The notes beneath the pieces were generated by a model. The model made no database searches, was not told the DNA's origin, and saw only the letters and a list, made by a program, of their open reading frames with translations. From a virus, in the IMG/VR virus record IMGVR_UViG_3300009127_000031, positions 1 to 24,887 of that record: a stretch of 24,887 bases of DNA; one strand, given 5' to 3'. The translations under genes were made by a program, and so were the position numbers. Of the stretch, positions 2,436 through 12,285 are shown piece by piece (the first letter of the stretch is position 1; each line of letters begins with the position of its first letter).

Positions 2436-4361
2436 TTATACCGTAATCCCAAATTCGGCCAACTTACGCATGGCCGGAATAATTTCATCCTCGGTCATAT
2501 CTTCCCAGTTGATTTCATCCAAAGGCTCGGCCGTCTGAATAATAATATCACCGAAATACACATTACCGCCGCCGGAGGCCAAAAACTCGGTCAAGTCGCG
2601 GTTCTGTACCGGCGATAGCACCCGTTCGCCCCTATCCAACAAATAAGTCGCTTCTTTGGGCACGTAGTCGAGTCCGCCGTGGGGCGCTCCGGCGATCCCC
2701 AAGGCCTCCACGACCCCCAAACGGGCGCCACCGTAAAGCATCACCGCCGCCGCTGCGGCCGCGCCCAGGGCCGGGCCGATAATCGGTATTCCGGCCATTG
2801 CCTCATAGGCCTTGATGGCGCCGGTATGAGTCGAGCGCATGATTTCCGGTATCGCCGCCGCCTTAGATAGGTCAAACCCTTTAAACGCGCCGGTTTTTTG
2901 AATGCCGTAGATAGTCTGCTGCTTCCAATCCTCGCTGGAGGCCTGCTCTTTATCGGATTTTTTCTTTATAGCGGCTTTTTTCTTTTCATAGATGGCCTGC
3001 AACTTGGCCAGGGCTTCCTGGTTGGCCTTATATTTATTTTGCTCCTCGGCATACCAGTTGTCCAGACGCTCGGCCTCGCTCAAGAAGTGCTCGTCATACA
3101 TCTCCTGGAGGCGCTCCATGTTGGCCTGGGTGACTTCCATGTTGGCGCTGGAAAAGGGACTGATGCCCTGGGGTCCCTCCTCGCCGTCTCCGATCGGCGC
3201 GGTCCCGGCCGCACGGATCTCGGCCAAAGCGGTCTTGATCTTTTCGGTATATTCATCTACTTTTTCCGTGGCCAGGCCTTCGGCGGCCAGGTCGTTCAAC
3301 TGGGCCTGAGACTCAACGGCCAGCGCCTGCATTTCGGCGATGGCCTCGGTGTTGATCTGTTTGTAGTTTTGGACGCCGGCAATAGCATCGTCGAAAACGC
3401 CGCCGACATTGACGGCCTCCATAAAGGCCAGCAATTTCTCAGTCAGAAAATCGATTCCGGTCCACAGAGCCTCGGAAAAGCCCGCAAAACCGATCTGGAG
3501 CACTTCCCAGGTCATTTGCAAACCGCGCCAGGAATCCACCAGTACCGCCGCGGCATAGGCCCCCTTTTCAGCCACACCGCCCATTGCGAACAAAAAATTT
3601 TCGGCAAATTGAACGATCCCCTCGCGGTTTTCGGCGATGAATTCGGCGAAGCGATTTCCCAAACCGGTCAGCGTCGGCATAACCTCTTCAGCGATGCCGT
3701 ACTTGACGCCTTTGAGCGATCCCCACACCCGGGTGAGCATATCGTTGAACTCGGCCGCGTTAGCGCCGGCCTTGGCCGATATTACCAGGCCGAAACGCTC
3801 GGCCTCATCGGTCATGGCTTCCAGGCCCGCCTGGCCATCTTTGAACATCTGGAGCATGGAAATGCCGCGCTGGCCGAAAATTTTGCTGGCATATTCGGCC
3901 CGCATGGTGGCATCTTCGACATTGTGCAAGGCCTCAGCCAATTCCGGCATGATAGTCTCGGCGGTTTTTAATTTGCCGCTGGCATCAGCCACAGAAACGC
4001 CCAGGGCGTCGAAAACCTCCTTGCCCTGGCCTAACCCCCGGTTGGCCTCGCCGATGCGAACCTGGAGCATTTGGATTGATTTGTTAAAGGTTTCCTGCTT
4101 AATGCCGGAAAACTCAGCCGCCATACCATGTCTGGACAAAAACTCGGTGGAAACGCCCAACTGGTCGGAAAACTTCTGCACGCTGTCATAGGCCGTTGCC
4201 GTGCTTTTAACCACCGCCAGCACGGACCCGCCCAGGGCAGCCACCCCTCCCGCGGCCCCGATGGCCAGCGTTTTAAGTGAGGGCAATGCGCTCCGGAGCT
4301 TGCCAAACACCCCGGAAAACTTGTCCTGCGCTCCGATAATTATTTCCAGCTTCTCAGCCAT
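2436..4361 (-). CDS. Tape measure protein
   Basis: This is the longest gene of the tail module, 641 residues. It begins MAEKLEIIIGAQDKFSGVFG, a typical tape-measure opening, and has a hydrophobic Gly/Ala segment at about residues 29-51 and another at about 523-548 (GIPIIGPALGAAAAAAVMLY). Between them is a long helical, Ala/Glu/Gln-rich region with coiled-coil character (about 345-480). The C-terminal motif around GGLDYVPKEATYLLDRGERV is common in tape measures. The ATG directly follows the stop of the G-T chaperone frame. This order (tube, G, G-T, tape measure) is the classical one. At about 1.5 angstrom per helical residue, 641 residues would suggest a tail near 95 nm, which is an inference. 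The short length fits a D3112/B3-type siphophage. Confidence 0.93.
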   Translation of the reverse strand: MAEKLEIIIGAQDKFSGVFGKLRSALPSLKTLAIGAAGGVAALGGSVLAVVKSTATAYDSVQKFSDQLGVSTEFLSRHGMAAEFSGIKQETFNKSIQMLQVRIGEANRGLGQGKEVFDALGVSVADASGKLKTAETIMPELAEALHNVEDATMRAEYASKIFGQRGISMLQMFKDGQAGLEAMTDEAERFGLVISAKAGANAAEFNDMLTRVWGSLKGVKYGIAEEVMPTLTGLGNRFAEFIAENREGIVQFAENFLFAMGGVAEKGAYAAAVLVDSWRGLQMTWEVLQIGFAGFSEALWTGIDFLTEKLLAFMEAVNVGGVFDDAIAGVQNYKQINTEAIAEMQALAVESQAQLNDLAAEGLATEKVDEYTEKIKTALAEIRAAGTAPIGDGEEGPQGISPFSSANMEVTQANMERLQEMYDEHFLSEAERLDNWYAEEQNKYKANQEALAKLQAIYEKKKAAIKKKSDKEQASSEDWKQQTIYGIQKTGAFKGFDLSKAAAIPEIMRSTHTGAIKAYEAMAGIPIIGPALGAAAAAAVMLYGGARLGVVEALGIAGAPHGGLDYVPKEATYLLDRGERVLSPVQNRDLTEFLASGGGNVYFGDIIIQTAEPLDEINWEDMTEDEIIPAMRKLAEFGITV

Positions 4362-4637
4362 CTAAAAACCTGCCTGCATGCGATTTTCTTCGTCCTTGAT
4401 CGTAGTGAATATATCCACCACGATTTGGTATTGATCCATGACCCCGCCCGGGTCCGGCCACTCCAGGCGCGAATAATACCCGGTTTTGGCAAACTTACCC
4501 GCCTTTAACATGCGGCCGCCGTCCCAGCGCCACTCGTGGCAAGTGCGAAACAAACTAATCCATCTCCAGGCCGGCTGGCCGGCAACCGGTGTGCTTACGC
4601 GCCGTCCTGTTTCGTAGAATCGGACGGCGCTTTTGAG
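4362..4637 (-). CDS. Tail assembly chaperone T part, read by -1 frameshift
   Basis: This is the -1 frame extension of the tail chaperone G. After slippage at the heptamer 4637-4643, reading resumes at 4637 and stays open for 91 codons to the TAG at 4362-4364, just before the tape measure ATG. The G-T fusion would be 135 residues of G followed by 91 of T, 226 in total. A TTG-initiated stand-alone frame exists from 4553, but it has no good ribosome binding site, and the -1 frame is open upstream of it as far as the slip site, which favours frameshift expression. In siphophages such as lambda, G and G-T chaperone the tape measure during tail tube assembly, with T recruiting tube subunits. Confidence 0.85.
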   Translation of the reverse strand, partial: LKSAVRFYETGRRVSTPVAGQPAWRWISLFRTCHEWRWDGGRMLKAGKFAKTGYYSRLEWPDPGGVMDQYQIVVDIFTTIKDEENRMQAGF

Positions 4638-5041
4638 TTTTTTGCCGACATTTCGTCCAGGCTGGAAATGGCCGCCAGTTGCCCGCTGATCTCAACGGCC
4701 AGGGTCATGAAAATGGTTTCTTCGGCCAGGTGCTCCCAGGTCACAGGCTCTTTATTGACGGTGATCCCCTGGATGTTTTGCACGTGCTCCGGAAAAATGT
4801 CTTTGGCCAGCCCCTGGATCTTGCGGCTGCTCTTCGACAGTTTCTCTTTCTGTTCCGGCGTCAGGCGCTTAACAAAATCCTTTACGCTTTCATCGGGCTT
4901 GCGCCGCTCGCCTTCCAGGTACGGCGCCAGGGCAAACATGGCCCAGCTTTTCAGCGGCCGCAGTTCCATCGTCACTTTGTGGCCGTGAAATACGGTTTCA
5001 TACGGCTGCCAGCCGATCACGATATCCAATGGCATAGACAC
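4595..5041 (-). CDS. Tail assembly chaperone G
   Basis: A 148-residue protein lying between the tail tube and the tape measure, the canonical position of the G chaperone. It is soluble and mostly helical, with a charged middle (about 45-75, many Lys/Glu) and a polar C-terminus (MSAKNSKAPSDSTKQDGA). The slippery heptamer falls at codons 134-135. A GGGGGG tract sits just before the first ATG at 5041; a second in-frame ATG at 5035 is an alternative start. Ordinary termination at the TAA gives G, and -1 slippage gives the G-T fusion. In known systems a fixed G to G-T ratio controls tail assembly. Identity rests on context plus the frameshift signal, not on recognisable residues. Confidence 0.85.
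   Translation of the reverse strand: MSMPLDIVIGWQPYETVFHGHKVTMELRPLKSWAMFALAPYLEGERRKPDESVKDFVKRLTPEQKEKLSKSSRKIQGLAKDIFPEHVQNIQGITVNKEPVTWEHLAEETIFMTLAVEISGQLAAISSLDEMSAKNSKAPSDSTKQDGA
4599..4643 (-). promoter_or_regulatory. Programmed -1 ribosomal frameshift signal
   Basis: Read on the minus strand, the G frame contains A AAA AAC (4643-4637), with AAA and AAC as zero-frame codons. This is a canonical -1 slippery heptamer. Six bases later (TCAAAA) begins a perfect 9-bp stem: GCGCCGTCC at 4630-4622 pairs with GGACGGCGC at 4607-4599 across a 14-base loop. The -1 frame is open for 92 codons from the slip point. Slippery site, spacer and stem all have the expected geometry. Confidence 0.92.
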
Positions 5042-5047
5042 CCCCCT

Positions 5048-6016
5048 TTAATAAGCGCTCAATGTGTTGACCAGCGTAAATTCGATCATAGTGCCCGAAT
5101 CGGCGTGATAATCAGCTTCGCCCACAAAACCGGCTTCAACCATGCCGGGCCCGCCGATGTTTACCGGAAAGCTGTTATAGCGCATTCGCGGTATATCGAC
5201 CTCGAATTTGGCCGGATATCCTGAGCCGACGTCCTGGCCGGTCACCGTTACCACCACGCGCTGAGCCGCTTGGTTGCGGTAGTGATCGAACTCGTCGTCA
5301 TTGATAAACAGCATAGTCCCGGCCAGCTCGATTGCCCTGAACTCTTTGCGCTTGATGCGATTGGGCAGCTTGGTGCCGTCCAGGGTGCCCTTGGCTTCCA
5401 GGTTGTTTTTCATGGTCAGCGTCATTTGCGAAAGATCGTCGATGGCGCCGTCGGCCGATCCCTGAAAGCTGGCGCTGGCCTGGTCCCAGGTGTACTCGGA
5501 CCCGCCCAGATACGACGGTATGGTTTTGGCCACCTTGCCGAAATTGGCTCCGATCACCGTCATGGTGGCCTTGACGATCTGCCCGTAGGCGATCTCGATG
5601 GCCAGCATGTCGCACAAACAGTCATAATACTGGTGGGCGCTGCCGGCATCGCGGTACACTTCGATGGTCATGGGCGGCACCGCCGCCTTCTCATCGAAAT
5701 CGTCCGTGCACGGCTGAAATTCATGCGTATAGCATGAGTCGTTCAGGGTGCCGCTGCTCTGGCCGCACCAGGCCTTGAGCACCTTGCCGAGCAAAATCGG
5801 GTGCGCCGGAAACACCACGTCGCCGCCGATTTCATGGGCCCCTTCGTAGACATCGCCCTTTTCATAGCGGCCGCGCATGCCCTCAGACGGCAGCGCCGGA
5901 ATGTTTTCGGAAAGCGACTCGCTGATGATCGGAAAATAATGAAAACTGTTTACGTTGGCCGTGCCAAAGCTGTCCTGAAACGCTATGGCTACATGGCTTC
6001 TCATTCCGTATGGCAT
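5048..6016 (-). CDS. Phage tail tube protein
   Basis: A 322-residue protein with beta-rich character, starting MPYGMRSHVAIAFQDSFGTA, which resembles the opening of many siphophage tail tube proteins. It has repeated strand/turn patterns (ATMTVIGANFGK near the middle; ELAGTMLFINDDEFDHYRNQ in the C-terminal half) and no membrane segment. It lies directly before the chaperone pair G/G-T, exactly where the major tail subunit is expected, and there is no sheath gene upstream. The start overlaps the preceding stop (TAATG) and has an extended GGAGGTGATGA ribosome binding site 9 bases upstream, fitting an abundant virion protein. Confidence in a major tail subunit is high; the exact family name is less certain. 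Confidence 0.85.
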   Translation of the reverse strand: MPYGMRSHVAIAFQDSFGTANVNSFHYFPIISESLSENIPALPSEGMRGRYEKGDVYEGAHEIGGDVVFPAHPILLGKVLKAWCGQSSGTLNDSCYTHEFQPCTDDFDEKAAVPPMTIEVYRDAGSAHQYYDCLCDMLAIEIAYGQIVKATMTVIGANFGKVAKTIPSYLGGSEYTWDQASASFQGSADGAIDDLSQMTLTMKNNLEAKGTLDGTKLPNRIKRKEFRAIELAGTMLFINDDEFDHYRNQAAQRVVVTVTGQDVGSGYPAKFEVDIPRMRYNSFPVNIGGPGMVEAGFVGEADYHADSGTMIEFTLVNTLSAY

Positions 6017-6219
6017 TAATCATCACCTCCTTGCTCTTTTTCGTCCGCCGGCGCCGGATCACGGGACTCCGGCTTCTTTTCTTTGGTTTCGACGGCCTGT
6101 TTCTGATCGATCAGGCTGTCAGCCAGCGCTTTGTCAATCGTACGCACATCGCCGGTATTGATCCGGCCAATGCCCGGCACAATGCGCTCGCCATCGGTCC
6201 ACTTGATGGTTTTTGTCAT
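6016..6219 (-). CDS. Mu gp38-like small protein (DUF2635-like)
   Basis: A 67-residue protein, MTKTIKWTDGERIVPGIGRI at the N-terminus. A short beta-like N-terminal half (PGIGRINTGDVRTIDKALADSL) is followed by a charged, probably disordered tail (EKKPESRDPAPADEKEQGGDD). In Mu a small DUF2635 protein (gp38) lies just before the sheath; here the equivalent position is just before the tail tube. The start overlaps the preceding stop (ATGA) and the stop overlaps the tube start (TAATG). Its last codons include the strong ribosome binding site of the tube gene. The family call is from position and general resemblance. Confidence 0.55.
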   Translation of the reverse strand: MTKTIKWTDGERIVPGIGRINTGDVRTIDKALADSLIDQKQAVETKEKKPESRDPAPADEKEQGGDD

Positions 6220-6641
6220 GCCCGCACCTCCGCTAAAATGGTTATGGTTGCCGAGTGATGATAGATTTGCTCACTCGGGTTATATTCATATTCAATTTCA
6301 TAGCCGTTGGTCATCAGCACCGTGCCGCTCAGGGTTTTATTGGCGGTCAGCACGTCCAGCACCGCCTTTTCGGCGTCCTGGAGGCCGTCTTCGGCATCTT
6401 CTTTGTTCATAGCGGCATACTGCACTTCCACCTTGGGCATTACGCTGACCAGCCAGGGCGTGCTTCCGGTGGTAAACGGTTTGTAAGCCGTCTTGCCGCG
6501 CATCACATTGATCCAGCCGTTGCCCTGGGCCGCGACATTGGCGTCATCGTTGCGCTCAGCATTGCGCTCGATGACATAGCCGTCCAGGTTGGCGGCCAAA
6601 AGGTCTTTGATCGCTTTGGTGATATTGGCGACATCGATCAT
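6216..6641 (-). CDS. Mu gp37-like protein (DUF1834-like), probable tail terminator
   Basis: A 141-residue alpha/beta protein starting MIDVANITKAIKDLLAANLD. Its layout of N-terminal helix, strand, central amphipathic helix (DGLQDAEKAVLDVLTANK, about 84-101) and C-terminal strand is that of tail terminator proteins. In Mu-like phages this slot, between the gpG/gp36 connectors and the tube or sheath, holds gp37 (DUF1834). The start overlaps the stop of the gpG-like gene (ATGA) and the stop overlaps the next start (ATGA), so translation is coupled at both ends. It probably caps the tail tube and joins it to the connector; this is inferred from position. Confidence 0.6.
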   Translation of the reverse strand: MIDVANITKAIKDLLAANLDGYVIERNAERNDDANVAAQGNGWINVMRGKTAYKPFTTGSTPWLVSVMPKVEVQYAAMNKEDAEDGLQDAEKAVLDVLTANKTLSGTVLMTNGYEIEYEYNPSEQIYHHSATITILAEVRA

Positions 6642-7090
6642 TTCATGGCTCTCCCGATAAATTTTTCATAAAGCTTTTTCAGCGCAGGCCAGATCTGCTT
6701 GTCCGTGGGCAAAATGCGGCGCACCGGCAGGCCGTACATGCCGTAATGATGATGTCTGGCATAATCGACACCCGACTGCACCTTGGCCAGCCCCGCCGTC
6801 CACAAGTGCTTCCATTTCTTTTTCAGGGTGCCGGTGTCCTGCAATATTTTGGCCGATCCCGTACCGAAGCCCTTGCGCCGCATGGCCAGGGTTTGGGCCG
6901 CCAGCGGCCGCCATCCCGAACCGCCCATTGCCAGCCGGCCTTGCTCGTCGAAGTTTTTCTGAATCCAGCGGTCCACCACCACCGTGGCCTGGGCGTTGAC
7001 CTTCTCGCGGTTTTTGAGTTTCTGCATGCGACGATCCATCGCCCATTGCAACAAGTTGAACCCGACAGCTTTTATCAACATATCAGACAT
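6638..7090 (-). CDS. Phage virion morphogenesis protein (Mu gpG-like)
   Basis: A 150-residue protein starting at the ATG at 7090 (MSDMLIKAVGFNLLQWAMDR). An in-frame upstream ATG at 7279 is rejected because it lies inside the gp36-like gene and its translation is Arg/Pro/Ser-rich shadow sequence. Typical features of the gpG/virion morphogenesis family are visible: an N-terminal helix, the GWRPLAAQTLAMRRKGFG segment (about 55-72), the ILQDTGTLKKKW segment and the VDYARHHHYG motif. The family acts in tail completion or head-tail joining. It overlaps the gp36-like stop by 8 bases and has only a weak ribosome binding site. In Mu, G lies next to F; here it is beside gp36/gp37, an order also found in siphovirus relatives of Mu. 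Confidence 0.82.
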   Translation of the reverse strand: MSDMLIKAVGFNLLQWAMDRRMQKLKNREKVNAQATVVVDRWIQKNFDEQGRLAMGGSGWRPLAAQTLAMRRKGFGTGSAKILQDTGTLKKKWKHLWTAGLAKVQSGVDYARHHHYGMYGLPVRRILPTDKQIWPALKKLYEKFIGRAMK

Positions 7091-7538
7091 CGCGTTCGTC
7101 CGCCTCGTCCTGCAGCCGCTCCGAACTGACCATCGTGAGCGAGTCATCCGCATCCAGCATGGAGTGCACCGGGTGGTAATCCATCGTGGTCGACCAGATC
7201 TCTTCGCCGGACCCAGACGGCTCGATGGTGGTCCCGGAGCCGGTGTAAATGTATTCCTCGCCGTCCTTGATATCGTCAATGCGGCCCTTGATATCTTCGC
7301 GTATCTCCCGGGCCTTTTTGGGGTCTTTCATGCGCAGCGCCCGGTAGTAGGCCAGGTCGATGGTCAGATCCTTGACGGTCGGGTGCGCGGCCGCAAACGG
7401 CACCGTAAAATGCGACGCCAGCAGGCTGTTGAGCTCCATTTCGGCAAAATAGAGCAAATCGCTCTCCACGTTGGTCTGGGACCAGGTGGCCAGCAGCGGA
7501 TAGCGCTGGATCGCTTCGGCATAATTCGCATATGGCAT
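7083..7538 (-). CDS. Mu gp36-like protein (DUF1320), head-tail connector
   Basis: A 151-residue protein beginning MPYANYAEAIQRYPLLATWS. The N-terminal helical region with ESDLLYFAEMELNSLLASHF (about 25-44) and then TVKDLTIDLAYYRALRMKDPKKAREI is characteristic of DUF1320 / Mu gp36, an adaptor protein at the portal-tail interface. A GGGGG ribosome binding site overlaps the stop of the 966-residue enzyme gene upstream and is 5 bases from the ATG. The C-terminal 45 residues are acidic and Ser/Gly-rich and look disordered. The gene is separated from the gp35-like coiled-coil gene only by the large glycan enzyme, so that enzyme sits inside a conserved structural gene pair. Confidence 0.8.
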   Translation of the reverse strand: MPYANYAEAIQRYPLLATWSQTNVESDLLYFAEMELNSLLASHFTVPFAAAHPTVKDLTIDLAYYRALRMKDPKKAREIREDIKGRIDDIKDGEEYIYTGSGTTIEPSGSGEEIWSTTMDYHPVHSMLDADDSLTMVSSERLQDEADERDV

Positions 7539-7547
7539 TGCAGCCCC

Positions 7548-10448
7548 CTAAAAGTATTTTTCGCCGTAATGCCGGGTCTGCTCGGCGATCAGTTTATTCA
7601 TAAAATCTTCAATGTCCTGTCTGCCGGCAAACTTGCCGAAGATCGGGGTTTCCGGCAGGTGCACGTCCGCTCCGTTGGCGGACGCCGCCAGGTTGACAAC
7701 AAATTCGATGCCGCCGCCCAATAGGTTGACGGCCTCGCTGTAATATGGCAATCCTTCTACTACCATGCGCATTTCATCCATTTCCAGTAGCCCGCGCCAC
7801 AGCTCGACGATGGTCTCGGCCTGGGCACCGATCTCCGGTGTCAGTCGGCGGCCGTTGGCCTCAAAGGTGTAGCGGATATTATGGGCCAGGTCGCGCAGAT
7901 ACAAAAACTTGCCCAATTTGCGGTCCGGGTAGGCCTCGCGATCGCGCTTAATCAACGGGAAATTGCGGTCGAACCGTTTGCGGCGAATGGCCTCGGTGGC
8001 ATAGCCGGTATGCATGACTGCCACGTCCGGCAAAAGCATGACCTTGCCCACGCCCTCATTGGGCCCTTCGGGCCGGCTGGGATGCTCGTGGACCAGGCCG
8101 AAAAAGCAGATGCCTCTGTGATTGCGAAAACAGCGCACTGGAAAATCGGTCTTGATCAAGTCGGCCGGCTCAGCCGCAAAGTGGAGCTGGCTGACGCCGT
8201 AGCCGGTGAAGCAATTAGGCCGCAGATATTTTTTAAGGTTTTGGGCGTTCTCCAGGGTCTCGTCGGCGTCAACCCACAAAATCCAGTCCATTGTTGCCTG
8301 CTCGATGGACAGGTTGCGCGCGGCGTCAAACCCGATCTCCAGCGGCGACGGGATCTCGATACAGCGGGCCCCGAAACTTTCGGCAATCTCCCGGGTGTTG
8401 TCCGTGGTCGTTTGATCGATCGCCACAATGATCTCATCGGCGATATCCTTGACCTTGCGCAGCGTGCGGCCGATACTGTCGGCTTCGTCTTTGGCAATCA
8501 TGCACACGCTTAAAGTTTCCCGGGGGGCCTGTTGATTGAGCTTGCGCTGATAATCGATGCGCCCGATCGGCTCTCCGGACGGATTAAACGTCAGCACAAA
8601 ATGCCCCAGTTCGCCGCGGTGCGGCAGGGCCAGCAAATTGTAGTTTTCCTGGGTGCCGAATATCTCGTACAGGTCACGGCGCTCGAAATGGTGGATGTGG
8701 GCGCGCCAGCCCGGATGATCCGCGTACCCGATGGCCTCCCAGGGGCCGTAGGGCGTTGAAATCAGCATGGTGCCGTCCGGGTTAAGGTGTTTCATCAGGC
8801 TTTCGACCATCTCTACCGGATCAGGCACGTGCTCGAGGATCTCGGCCGCGATGATCATGTCGAATTTGTACTCATCCGGTATGCCCTTATGGGTGCCAAC
8901 GTGAAACTCGGGCCTAAACCGATGCTGTTTTTCTTCTTTTTCGGCCCATTTAATTGCGGCTAAGATGTTTGATTCATTGATGTCGAAACCAACAAACTCT
9001 ATGTCCGGAAACCGTTTCAAGAGGTTCATCACATAATGACCGTGGGCGCAGCCGTAATCGAGCACGGTCTTGGGCGCGGCCTTTTTGACCATCTCGGATA
9101 TGCACTCAAAGCGGTTGTTGTCGGTCAGATCCTCGGGGCCGTATTCGACACCCCGGTCCTTTTCATATTGATAGTAGCGATCGTAGTGGCGCTCGAAATC
9201 CATGTCCAGATAGAAATAATAATTGCGCGAAAAGTCGGGCAAGATGTCATTTATGGCGTCAAAGGGATAACCGCGCTCCTCTGCTTGGGCAATCGGATAT
9301 TCATGCTGGAGAATCGCCTTGATATCGCTTAAGCGCTCCAGATGTTTGTACAGCCGCACTTTGTTCGAGGATCGTTTCTTCAGCAGATCGGCAAAAAGTA
9401 CTTCCCATTGTGCGGCAGCCTGGGTCCAGGACTGGCGCTTCTGTTTGGCCTTTGAATGCAGTTTTTCCCACTGGCCGGGAACGTTCAGGATTTTACGCAC
9501 GGTCTTGACGAATGCTTTTTGGTCGACCTCGCCGTCCTTAAACGGCAAAAGCATTGCGCCATCCCGGCCGATGGTTTCGGGCAGGGCCGCATTTTTAAAT
9601 CCGACAAACGGCGTGCCGGCGGCATTGGACTCGATGGATACGATGTTTGAAGTGTCTTCGAACGTGGTCGGGTAGACGTACAGCATCGATTTTGCCATCA
9701 GTTCATAAAGTTGGCGCTTGCCCAGAAAGCCCACGTTGGTCACGTTGGGCAGCTCCTCGCAGCGGCGCCACAAATATTCGTAAAACCCGCGCATCTGATC
9801 GGGCACGTTCTTGTAGCTGCACACGTACAAATGGCAGTCGCTAAGCTGCTCCATAATGCCGCCTGCTTCCACCAAATTTTCCAGGCCGCGCTCCGGGCGC
9901 GAGGCAAACACCAAAGAGCGCGGCTCGCGCTCGAAGTGTTCCAGGTTCTTGAAGGTATCGTAATCCACGCCGTTGATGGTGGCCGTGACAAATTCCTTAT
10001 CGATGCCGTATATTTCACTGACCTGGCTGCGGTGAAACTCCGAAACCGTCAAAACCCGATCGATATTGACCAGGTGCTGCTGCACTATGCCGGCGCTGCG
10101 GTATAGCGCCAGATCATGCAACCACCAGATGTTGAGCTTGCTGTTGTACTGCGAGGCAAACGCTAAAGGATGGCGCTGGGCGATCACCACGTCATTGGGC
10201 GCCTGCATGGCAAAATGAAAATGATAGCCCATCGGAAACTGCTCGCTGATCTGGCCCAGCCATTCGTAGCGCACGCCGTCCCAGCTCCCGGTCTTTTGGG
10301 AGTTGGTAAACAAAATCACCGTGTGCCCCAGTTTGGCCAGCTCCAGAGCCATGTAATAAGCCGCCGATTCGGACCCGCCCAGACTTTCGCCTTTGGGGAT
10401 GGTTTCGCCGTTAAACGGCATGCCCCCGCAGTGGATGGCAATATGCAT
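7548..10448 (-). CDS. Three-domain glycosyltransferase-methyltransferase-glycosyltransferase
   Basis: A 966-residue fusion. Residues about 1-360 form a GT4-type (GT-B) glycosyltransferase: GGSESAAYYMALELAKLGHT at 24-43, and the acceptor/donor segment FEDTSNIVSIESNAAGTPFV at 263-282. Residues about 400-620 form a class I SAM methyltransferase: motif I VLDYGCAHG (462-470), acidic D489 in FVGFDI, and IIAAEILEHVPDP (532-544). Residues about 645-900 form a GT2 (GT-A) glycosyltransferase: SVCMIAKDEADSIGRTL (647-663) and a D-x-D in WVDADE (D727, D729). There is no signal peptide or membrane anchor, so it should be cytoplasmic. AAAGGAG lies 5 bases before the ATG, 13 bases after the gp35-like stop, without its own terminator. 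Inside the late structural operon it most plausibly modifies a virion protein with a methylated glycan; changing host surface glycans is the alternative. Domain calls are secure, the substrate is unknown. Confidence 0.93.
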   Translation of the reverse strand: MHIAIHCGGMPFNGETIPKGESLGGSESAAYYMALELAKLGHTVILFTNSQKTGSWDGVRYEWLGQISEQFPMGYHFHFAMQAPNDVVIAQRHPLAFASQYNSKLNIWWLHDLALYRSAGIVQQHLVNIDRVLTVSEFHRSQVSEIYGIDKEFVTATINGVDYDTFKNLEHFEREPRSLVFASRPERGLENLVEAGGIMEQLSDCHLYVCSYKNVPDQMRGFYEYLWRRCEELPNVTNVGFLGKRQLYELMAKSMLYVYPTTFEDTSNIVSIESNAAGTPFVGFKNAALPETIGRDGAMLLPFKDGEVDQKAFVKTVRKILNVPGQWEKLHSKAKQKRQSWTQAAAQWEVLFADLLKKRSSNKVRLYKHLERLSDIKAILQHEYPIAQAEERGYPFDAINDILPDFSRNYYFYLDMDFERHYDRYYQYEKDRGVEYGPEDLTDNNRFECISEMVKKAAPKTVLDYGCAHGHYVMNLLKRFPDIEFVGFDINESNILAAIKWAEKEEKQHRFRPEFHVGTHKGIPDEYKFDMIIAAEILEHVPDPVEMVESLMKHLNPDGTMLISTPYGPWEAIGYADHPGWRAHIHHFERRDLYEIFGTQENYNLLALPHRGELGHFVLTFNPSGEPIGRIDYQRKLNQQAPRETLSVCMIAKDEADSIGRTLRKVKDIADEIIVAIDQTTTDNTREIAESFGARCIEIPSPLEIGFDAARNLSIEQATMDWILWVDADETLENAQNLKKYLRPNCFTGYGVSQLHFAAEPADLIKTDFPVRCFRNHRGICFFGLVHEHPSRPEGPNEGVGKVMLLPDVAVMHTGYATEAIRRKRFDRNFPLIKRDREAYPDRKLGKFLYLRDLAHNIRYTFEANGRRLTPEIGAQAETIVELWRGLLEMDEMRMVVEGLPYYSEAVNLLGGGIEFVVNLAASANGADVHLPETPIFGKFAGRQDIEDFMNKLIAEQTRHYGEKYF

Positions 10449-10461
10449 TGAAGCTCCTTTA

Positions 10462-10713
10462 TTAGCCGGCTTTAAGTTTTTTGTTCTCTTTTTCCAGGGC
10501 CGTCAGTTTTTTCTCCAGTTCCGCGATCGTTTCTTCCTGGGCCTTGAATGTCTTCTCAGCATCGTCCAGGGCCGCTTCCGCCGCTTCCAGTTTTTTCAGC
10601 GCTTCGGCCGCGCTTGCAGCTTCCTGCTCGGCGGCCTCTTGGGCCTTGGCCAGAGCGTCCGCCTCTTTCTGCTGGACTTTTTTGTATTTTTCCGTGTCCG
10701 ACGTCAGTGTCAT
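10462..10713 (-). CDS. Coiled-coil protein, Mu gp35-like position
   Basis: An 83-residue protein that is almost entirely a predicted coiled coil, dominated by Ala, Glu, Lys and Gln (ALAKAQEAAEQEAASAAEAL, then AEALKKLEAAEAALDDAE and EELEKK-like heptads at the C-terminus). It follows the capsid region and precedes the glycan enzyme. In Mu the slot between the capsid (T) and gp36 holds gp35. GGAGG lies 10 bases before the ATG, and the ATG overlaps a TGA ending the amber-interrupted frame upstream. A role as capsid accessory or assembly factor is inferred from position only. Confidence 0.7.
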   Translation of the reverse strand: MTLTSDTEKYKKVQQKEADALAKAQEAAEQEAASAAEALKKLEAAEAALDDAEKTFKAQEETIAELEKKLTALEKENKKLKAG

Positions 10714-10907
10714 TTGCTTTTTTCCTCCTCGTTAAATTTGACTTTATATAAGAAATCATTAATGGCTGAGCTTCGGGGAATCACCTCCTTTTTTCTTTTT
10801 GTATGCAAGATGAAAGCGCACATCTCACAGAAGTTAAATCGTCGTCGCAAATACTACCAATCTGCTCTGCGAACGCTTTCGACTTCATCTATTGTTAATA
10901 TTTTCAA
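10710..10907 (-). pseudogene. Small reading frame with an in-frame amber codon
   Basis: Between the capsid stop and the coiled-coil gene one frame reads, from a TTG at 10907, KILTIDEVESVRRADW, then TAG at 10856-10854, then YLRRRFNFCEMCAFILHTKR and on to a TGA at 10712-10710 that overlaps the next ATG. Ignoring the amber codon gives about 65 residues that look like one protein, with a CxxC pair (FCEMC) and a coupled end. There is no good ribosome binding site for the TTG; a downstream ATG in the same frame (in CEMC) is another possible start. It may be a recently disrupted small phage gene, a read-through gene or chance. TAG terminates at least five other genes here, so general reassignment is unlikely. 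Confidence 0.4.
10777..10790 (-). promoter_or_regulatory. Orphan perfect Shine-Dalgarno sequence
   Basis: The minus strand reads AAGGAGGTGATTCC, an 11-base match to the complement of the usual 16S rRNA 3' end. No ATG, GTG or TTG lies 4-12 bases downstream in a frame that leads to a plausible protein; the first ATG (10759) opens only a shadow of the coiled-coil gene. The same motif precedes real starts at the capsid, decoration, scaffold and tail tube genes. It may be a relic of a lost start, a ribosome-pausing site, or part of the interrupted frame. Confidence 0.5.
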
Positions 10908-10911
10908 CTCT

Positions 10912-11880
10912 CTACTGCGCCGATCCCACACCGGTGATCAGAAATCCCAGGGTGTCCGCCGTGATCTTTTCGTCCTGATAATAGCCCAGTTCGACTTCTT
11001 CGGCCTTGGCCCGGGGCAGTTGATGCACCTGGGCCTCCATATTCATGATCTTGTTCCAGCGGAAGCTGTACATGAAGCTGGGCTCCTCCTGGTCCGGTCC
11101 GGCCGGCTGCATGGGCGCAAAGTAAATCAGCACGTTGTCATTCCAGAGTTGTGACAGGGCCACGGCCTGGCCTTCGTCGGCCGTGCTGTAATAGGCCCCG
11201 CCGATGAGCACGCGGTCCACCTCGAACAGGGCCTTGACCTGCTCGATGGTGACGATGCGAGCGCTCTTGCCCTTATCCACTTCGCCGTAGATCCGGGCGA
11301 TCACGTCGGCGTGCTCGCGGAAATGGCGCCAGGCATAGCGGCCGAAAATGATCGAGTTGGGCCGGTACCCGGTGGAATCCTCCACGTTCTGGATGCCGGT
11401 GTTGATGTCGGCAATCGGCGCGCTCTTGCCGGCCGTGTAATCGGTCCAGGCGCTGGCCACAGCACTGTAACTGCCCACGTTGGAACCGCTGGTGCATTTA
11501 AGCGCCACCCGTTTTTCCATCGAGAGCATCAGCTTGTTCTTAATAAACCTGGCCCGTGAGCTGCGCTTGGCGAATATGAATCCCGCGTCGGCGTTCTCGA
11601 TGTCCTCGTAGGGGATACGGTCTTTGAGCGCATAATTGCGCGCAAAAAACGTGTCGCTGGTAACGCCGCGGGTGATCACGTTGGCCTCGGTGCCCGGCGC
11701 GCGCAGATCGTCGTCCACGCGAAAAGCGTCGGCCTGGCTCCAGATGTAATACCCGTCCGACTGCTTGTTGACCGGCACGACCGGGGCGATCTGGTCGGCA
11801 ATAAAGCCTCTGGGTGTATATCCGATGGCCACGTTGGATAGCGGCACATCAATATGTACGTCTCTACCTGTTGCTGGCAT
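10912..11880 (-). CDS. Major capsid protein
   Basis: A 322-residue protein starting MPATGRDVHIDVPLSNVAIG. The N-terminal arm (SNVAIGYTPRGFIADQIAPV), the central helix-rich segment with RNYALKDRIPYEDIENAD (about 82-99), and the C-terminal GGAYYSTADEGQAVALSQLW segment fit the HK97-fold major capsid proteins of Mu-like and related phages. It lies after the protease/scaffold and decoration genes, the expected place. AGGAGGTGAT is 7 bases from the ATG, one of the strongest ribosome binding sites in the window, as expected for the most abundant virion protein. It ends with TAG. I cannot identify the exact capsid subfamily from sequence alone. Confidence 0.88.
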   Translation of the reverse strand: MPATGRDVHIDVPLSNVAIGYTPRGFIADQIAPVVPVNKQSDGYYIWSQADAFRVDDDLRAPGTEANVITRGVTSDTFFARNYALKDRIPYEDIENADAGFIFAKRSSRARFIKNKLMLSMEKRVALKCTSGSNVGSYSAVASAWTDYTAGKSAPIADINTGIQNVEDSTGYRPNSIIFGRYAWRHFREHADVIARIYGEVDKGKSARIVTIEQVKALFEVDRVLIGGAYYSTADEGQAVALSQLWNDNVLIYFAPMQPAGPDQEEPSFMYSFRWNKIMNMEAQVHQLPRAKAEEVELGYYQDEKITADTLGFLITGVGSAQ

Positions 11881-11898: not shown

Positions 11899-12285
11899 TT
11901 ACCAGGCAAATGAGCTTGAAAATGCGTATACAGGTGCCGTAAAATTGAACAGCCCTGTGCCGATAGAACCGGAAGTTACAGCGGCTGCCTTGTTGCGACC
12001 CACGATATAATCACCGCTCCCCGCTTCTGTAAGCCAGCCGGAGGTCGTAACGGTCAATGGTTTCGAGGCCGCAACAGCCCCGCCGGCCGCATACTTCAGT
12101 TCACCCTGGTACCCCAAGGTGCCGCCGTCGCCGCTTTTGGGCTTGGACAGCAGAATGCCGGAGGCCTCCTCGCCGCTGTTTGCCAGCTTACCGTCGTCCA
12201 GGGCAATGGCATGGTAGATGCACCCGCTGTTCAGGTCTTCGCCGGCTTCAAACGTGGTTTCAAGTCGTCTTCCTTCGGTTGCCAT
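11899..12285 (-). CDS. Head decoration-like protein
   Basis: A 128-residue Gly/Ala/Ser-rich protein starting MATEGRRLETTFEAGEDLNS. Its short strands and turns resemble small capsid decoration proteins (DUF2190-like or lambda gpD-like beta-tulip folds), in particular the N-terminal beta-arm followed by GEEASGILLSKPKSGDGGTL. It sits between the scaffold and the major capsid, where decoration proteins are common. The ATG overlaps the upstream stop (TGATG) and is served by GGAGGTGAT (GGAGG at 12299-12295, 9-base spacer) embedded in the end of the scaffold gene. The strong site suggests high expression. Confidence 0.72.
   Translation of the reverse strand: MATEGRRLETTFEAGEDLNSGCIYHAIALDDGKLANSGEEASGILLSKPKSGDGGTLGYQGELKYAAGGAVAASKPLTVTTSGWLTEAGSGDYIVGRNKAAAVTSGSIGTGLFNFTAPVYAFSSSFAW

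Follow-up and report, generated by a model that had tools for sequence, protein, structure and literature searches.

The locus and its enzyme gene

The DNA analysed (the window) is a stretch of 24,887 nucleotides, positions 1 to 24,887 of the IMG/VR virus record IMGVR_UViG_3300009127_000031. Its genes are those of a Mu-like transposable phage, with a Mu transposase (C-terminal domain), GemA, the Mu portal, and gp36 (PF09299, PF06252, PF06074, and PF07030). An AAA ATPase, a major capsid protein (MCP) of the phrog_1005 family, and genes for tail completion and the tail tube were recognised as well. None of the window genes examined was recognised as encoding a sheath, a result suggestive of a non-contractile tail. 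The features discussed here are listed in Table 1.

Table 1. Enzyme gene, its modules, and neighbouring virion genes in the window
Feature	Position	Strand	Basis
GT4-methyltransferase-GT2 enzyme, 966 aa	7548..10448	(-)	ORF, Pfam, AlphaFold2
GT4 (GT-B) module, residues ~1-360; EX7E variant D265/E273	9369..10448	(-)	Pfam, structure match, motif counts
Class I SAM methyltransferase module, residues ~420-641; DxGC(A)HG, E536/E539/H540, PYGPWE	8526..9191	(-)	Pfam, motif counts
SunS/ThuS/GmaR-type GT2 module with helical tail, residues 640-966; D727xD729, H787-E788	7551..8531	(-)	Models, profiles, motif counts
Major capsid protein (MCP), leading candidate acceptor	10912..11880	(-)	phrog_1005 2.3e-70
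Small decoration/scaffold-like head protein, alternative candidate acceptor	11899..12285	(-)	phrog_673 1.6e-9
83-aa coiled coil between MCP and enzyme	10462..10713	(-)	Sequence relatives not found
gp36-like head-tail connector, next downstream of enzyme	7083..7538	(-)	PF07030, above its cut-off
Tail completion protein	6638..7051	(-)	phrog_26, PF05069
Tail tube protein, alternative candidate acceptor	5048..6016	(-)	PF18906 1.3e-23

The first-pass annotation had described a three-domain gene of 966 codons, and its ORF, Pfam domains, and quoted motifs were all confirmed. The ORF is intact on the minus strand, from an ATG at 10448 to a stop at 7548-7550, and the start codon is preceded by a good ribosome-binding site, AAAGGAGCTTCAATG (AAAGGAG site). 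Upstream lie the MCP, the small decoration/scaffold-like protein, a protease, and the portal; downstream, the connector annotated as gp36-like does adjoin the enzyme gene and is followed by the tail completion gene. The flanking intergenic gaps are 13 and 9 bases long and neither holds a promoter-like or terminator-like site, in agreement with the earlier statement that the gene has no promoter or terminator of its own. The coiled coil called gp35-like in that annotation had a sequence relative in none of the fetched loci. In the gap of about 200 bases between the MCP and the coiled coil, a long stretch complementary to the anti-Shine-Dalgarno sequence (AAAAGGAGGTGAT, 10775-10790, minus strand) is present, and a well-placed start codon is absent close downstream of it.

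Enzyme modules

Pfam searches placed a GT-B/GT4 domain at approximately residues 24-321 (PF13692, 4.6e-9; PF13439, 1.8e-7), a methyltransferase at residues 456-602 (PF13489, 5.1e-20), and a GT2 domain at residues 647-741 (PF00535, 4.6e-15), with the motifs VLDYGCAHG at 462-470, IIAAEILEH at 532-540, and WVDADE at 725-730; FVGFDI was also found. The AlphaFold2 model, built using 55 relatives as input, was confident (mean pLDDT 92.4, pTM 0.91). No transmembrane segment was apparent in the enzyme (maximum Kyte-Doolittle mean of 1.37 over 19 residues). Comparison with the "viral" fold library gave no good-quality full-length match, the long alignments having rmsd near 29.

The N-terminal module belongs to GT4 by its GT-B fold and its EX7E-type acidic pair. 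Its structure matches MshA, BshA, tll1590/1591, and PimA over residues 1-360, with Z of approximately 27-33 against GT4 and other GT-B enzymes. The central module is a class I SAM methyltransferase by its PF13489 match and the retention of D464, G466, and G470 (motif I, DxGxxxG) and D489; its fusion with two glycosyltransferase modules suggests that it may be a sugar O-methyltransferase. In a set of 55 diverse relatives, each module keeps its catalytic motifs in 53-55: E273 in 55 and E or D at position 265 in 54 (one gap) for GT4, D464 in 53 and G470 in 55 for methyltransferase motif I, and D727 in 55 with D729, H787, and E788 in 54 each for GT2.

VIA-align of the full model covered the GT4 part alone, so the C-terminal part was modelled separately (pLDDT 95.5). 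Residues 1-318 of the 327 in this model aligned with SunS/ThuS (Z 23.6, 22.9, and 21.4; next entry 16.0), a match that takes in the helical tail; like SunS and ThuS, the module has a GT-A fold with a DxD motif and a helical tail. In a profile search, the nearest solved relatives of the C-terminal third were GmaR (2.3e-34), SunS (3.9e-24), and ThuS (1.6e-22), and GmaR was also the nearest solved GT2 by sequence (7.5e-18). The module scored 50.1 bits against the SunS equivalog TIGR04195 (NCBIfam), under its cut-off of 350, and therefore resembles SunS without being a member of that equivalog. SunS and ThuS glycosylate peptides, and none of SunS, ThuS, and GmaR is known to require a lipid carrier. 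GmaR glycosylates flagellin (PMC9638930). The GT2 module is closest to polypeptide glycosyltransferases, which put sugars directly on polypeptides, and its nearest relatives make a polypeptide side chain the probable recipient of its sugar.

Relatives and gene neighbourhoods

Viral contigs scanned with the single enzyme protein yielded two relatives, each with a gp36-like gene downstream of it. The same single-protein scan of bacterial genome contigs gave zero matches; an alignment-based scan then gave six prophage-like loci in bacterial genomes (SAR324, Deltaproteobacteria, and Zixibacteria) and 79 viral loci. Over all fetched loci there were 128 distinct full-length relatives (at least 900 aa). 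The MCP lies at most eight genes upstream of the enzyme in 85 of the 95 relatives that are sufficiently flanked, and seven or fewer genes downstream a neck or tail gene follows in 47 of 67. The architecture search proposed in the first-pass annotation thus found the full three-domain form recurring between MCP and neck/tail genes in most sufficiently flanked relatives. In the six host genomes, full-length matches were in prophage-like or short contigs and the remaining matches were single domains. Neither the 52 genomes searched in one phylum nor the 132 searched in a second contained a further enzyme match, no plasmid had a place with 80% of the enzyme query covered, and no record of annotated phages reached 80% query coverage by tblastn. 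Full-length homologues situated mainly in host polysaccharide loci, the finding that would have spoken against a virion role, were thus not seen in the 52 and 132 bacterial genomes or the plasmids.

These loci had been found via the enzyme, and viral contigs were therefore searched by MCP instead, using scans that require a conserved peptide in the MCP and counting a profile match as presence of the enzyme; a mixed MCP alignment was dropped because its diversity was too high for scanning. The enzyme lay downstream of 82 of the 86 distinct MCPs having at least 4 kb of downstream sequence, i.e., a glycosyltransferase is consistently kept with the virion genes. The enzyme-less MCPs are L194, on a contig that stops after 4.2 kb, together with three distant ones (L222, L274, and L275). 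In the cultured annotated phages RDJL Phi 1, KPP23, and Enterobacter phage Mulvp2, the MCP is ~25-30% identical and the site is empty. The MCP tree has three changes of enzyme state, and its enzyme-less rows sit on long branches except for L194. Enzyme and MCP distances correlate with a Spearman coefficient of 0.77 over 108 phages, a value reached by none of 500 permutations, and this correlation may be partly due to physical linkage and alignment quality, just as MCP adjacency may reflect mere gene order. The same comparison with MCP distances, on separate phage subsets, gave 0.54 for the protease (90 phages) and 0.50 for the tail completion protein (43 phages). Because of its presence in the MCP-led scans and this distance tracking, the enzyme behaves as a core gene of the head module and not as sporadic cargo.

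Phage glycosyltransferases frequently alter host surface polysaccharide, and the fold matches of the GT4 module extend to WaaG and further enzymes of surface glycans, which would fit a prophage cargo gene for serotype conversion or superinfection exclusion. Such a role is nonetheless quite unlikely here: the gene sits within the late head operon with gaps of 9-13 bases, is present across nearly the whole MCP lineage, has relatives in prophages of SAR324/Deltaproteobacteria and Zixibacteria and none found in host polysaccharide loci of the genomes searched, and has neither an apparent membrane segment nor a flippase partner. A serotype-conversion module would be expected to comprise a membrane glycosyltransferase/flippase set and to be sporadic cargo; the present protein shows no hydrophobic segment suggestive of a membrane enzyme, and its gene is core to the lineage.

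In five loci (L048-L051 and L069), the enzyme adjoins an SbcC-like (DNA-metabolism) gene and a radical SAM-like gene (approximately 4151-10970) and not a recognised MCP; the same sequence recurs in several of the contigs. Phage glycosyltransferases are known for DNA hypermodification (PMC12619734), and the group just described adjoins a nuclease subunit gene, as might be expected if the enzyme glycosylated and methylated modified bases in phage DNA. This is very unlikely, given that neither a base hydroxylase nor a gene for nucleotide hypermodification is among the window genes scanned, that the GT2 module belongs with enzymes that modify polypeptides, and that the locus is a head module.

Variants at the same site

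Several relatives carry further enzymes at the junction between MCP and enzyme. These include radical SAM genes (L038:6415-7137, L041:4952-5668, L043:6995-7855, and L055:3853-5413), possibly for a further tailoring step, extra methyltransferases (L038, and two in L118), and a separate GT4 gene (L137 and L152, and by profile also L082, L141, L146, L150, and L151). The earlier description of a self-contained module is therefore right only in part: one chain does hold all three domains, and a second GT4, additional methyltransferases, or a radical SAM enzyme is encoded alongside it in several relatives. At L080:7971-11381, an enzyme relative with an intein-splicing-like segment within its GT4 domain follows a different MCP family (phrog_1328) by ~2.3 kb, and in Podoviridae sp. 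ctKR88 (MW202524) the MCP and the head-tail connector are separated by methyltransferases and a GT2-TPR-GT4 gene fusion. These two arrangements and the junction extras look like independent uses of the same idea.

Other departures were seen at single loci. In L073:1653-4717, the enzyme is divided between two genes that overlap, one for GT4 (444 aa) and one for methyltransferase-GT2 (576 aa), which suggests that the modules are able to function as separate chains. The relative at L044:6111-9341 ends in a methionyl-tRNA synthetase match in place of the remaining GT2 and is possibly an assembly chimera. Some phages have large genes (458-867 aa) separating the enzyme from the neck/tail genes, at L033:10968-13568, L027:11909-13468, L032:5680-7053, L037:12673-14658, and L071:12322-14766; the first three were scanned and gave no Pfam match. 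A glycoside hydrolase-like protein (L062:5081-6259) and a lectin-like (laminin G) protein (L055:1047-3038) are encoded near the enzyme.

Proposed function

The enzyme probably puts a glycan on a virion protein, with GT2 priming (MCP being the most likely acceptor), GT4 extending, and the methyltransferase capping. As a soluble cytoplasmic enzyme made together with the head genes, it would use its GT2 module to link a first sugar, from a host nucleotide sugar, directly to a side chain of the virion protein. The N-terminal GT4 module would then add a second sugar, and the central methyltransferase would methylate, and so cap, the glycan. Direct priming on polypeptide would suit head decoration because the capsid is assembled in the cytoplasm, and the extension and methyl-capping steps are proposed from the parallels with WsaE and with the flagellin system of C. 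difficile type B. We infer the acceptor, the sugars, the order of the steps, and the benefit, which could be particle stability, adsorption, or particle protection. Since nearly every member of the lineage has the enzyme, the methylated sugar chain is probably a built-in assembly step and not optional cargo. The interpretation in the first-pass annotation is partly supported: its preference for virion decoration over host-surface cargo agrees with the position between MCP and neck/tail genes, the absence of a match in any host polysaccharide locus of the bacterial genomes searched, and the kinship of the GT2 module, and the host-surface reading is disfavoured. The retained catalytic motifs and the head-gene settings in L080 and MW202524 also favour a virion role, while the SbcC-adjacent group (L048-L051 and L069) and the three distant MCPs lacking the enzyme speak against it.

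The target could instead be a non-virion protein such as host flagellin or pilin, glycosylated at a late stage of infection so as to prevent superinfection or change motility, as GmaR, the nearest solved GT2 by sequence, acts on flagellin (PMC9638930). This seems unlikely, as a function of that kind would have no need of MCP linkage, whereas the enzyme keeps its head-gene position and tracks MCP divergence, and even the relative beside a different MCP (L080) retains a head-gene neighbourhood.

Within the virion reading, the acceptor may conceivably be the decoration/scaffold-like protein, the tail tube, or a fibre and not the MCP, a sub-case that overlaps the preferred one and that we consider possible but doubtful. 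The C-termini of both capsid and tail-tube proteins are glycosylated in mycobacteriophages, according to work cited in PMC12619734, and the small head protein is likewise conserved next door to the enzyme; distance tracking and adjacency favour the MCP, weakly. Conserved Ser/Thr columns inspected as candidate acceptor sites are present in both (S75 and S133 in the MCP, and S90 and S105 in the small head protein), but with enzyme-less comparators numbering only five they are not taken as evidence for either protein.

More tentatively, the enzyme might be an obligatory particle-assembly step in a widespread, mostly uncultured lineage, one chain priming, extending, and capping a capsid glycan, with the MCP-enzyme junction a hot spot at which that glycan is diversified by additional GT4, methyltransferase, and radical SAM genes. 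The phages would then possess the capsid's equivalent of an O-antigen locus.

Comparison with known systems

Phage particles are usually regarded as bare protein, and there are few phages in which glycosylation of the capsid has been demonstrated. Across the whole capsid lineage described here, which occurs in prophages of SAR324, Deltaproteobacteria, and Zixibacteria and in numerous metagenomes, an enzyme that builds glycans looks to be a core head gene. Should this be confirmed, glycosylation would count as a routine part of assembly in a large group of phages, and the enzyme, being a single chain, would offer a compact means of attaching a defined methylated glycan to a protein in the cytoplasm. 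No description of the three-module enzyme or of its fixation in a capsid lineage was found in the part of the literature covered.

Virion glycosylation has been described in mycobacteriophages, Che8 among them (Freeman et al. 2023, Cell Host Microbe, cited in PMC11256854 and PMC12619734). According to these citing accounts, phage-encoded glycosyltransferases and capsid (and tail tube) glycans are involved there, as in the glycan predicted here from genes, but the glycosyltransferase genes are separate and in Maravista lie near the genome 3' end, whereas here a single polypeptide combines GT4, methyltransferase, and GT2 beside the MCP across a Mu-like and related lineage. The glycocin S-glycosyltransferases SunS and ThuS share with the GT2 module the fold, including the helical tail, the DxD and HE motifs, and act on polypeptide, but are stand-alone enzymes with a small bacteriocin as substrate. 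GmaR, the Listeria flagellin O-GlcNAc transferase, has a helical repeat domain beside its catalytic domain and a self-assembling structural protein as target (PMC9638930); unlike the present enzyme, it is also an anti-repressor and lacks GT4 and methyltransferase modules. In C. difficile type B, one protein with glycosyltransferase and methyltransferase domains (GT2, CDR20291_0242) extends the O-linked flagellin glycan and is proposed to methylate it (PMC5207246), but it is encoded in a bacterial flagellar locus and the first sugar comes from a separate GT1. WsaE of Geobacillus stearothermophilus is likewise soluble and trifunctional, with one methyltransferase and two glycosyltransferase domains, and caps its glycan by methylation (PMC2943079); its methyltransferase is N-terminal, however, its glycosyltransferase domains are two rhamnosyltransferases, and its S-layer glycan is built on a lipid carrier and not directly on protein. 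The GT2-TPR-GT4 fusion of MW202524 is similar in lying with methyltransferases in a head gene cluster and differs in module order, in its separate methyltransferases, and in belonging to a different phage type. Virion glycosylation is thus already known, and what appears new is the single-chain architecture and its clade-wide fixation.
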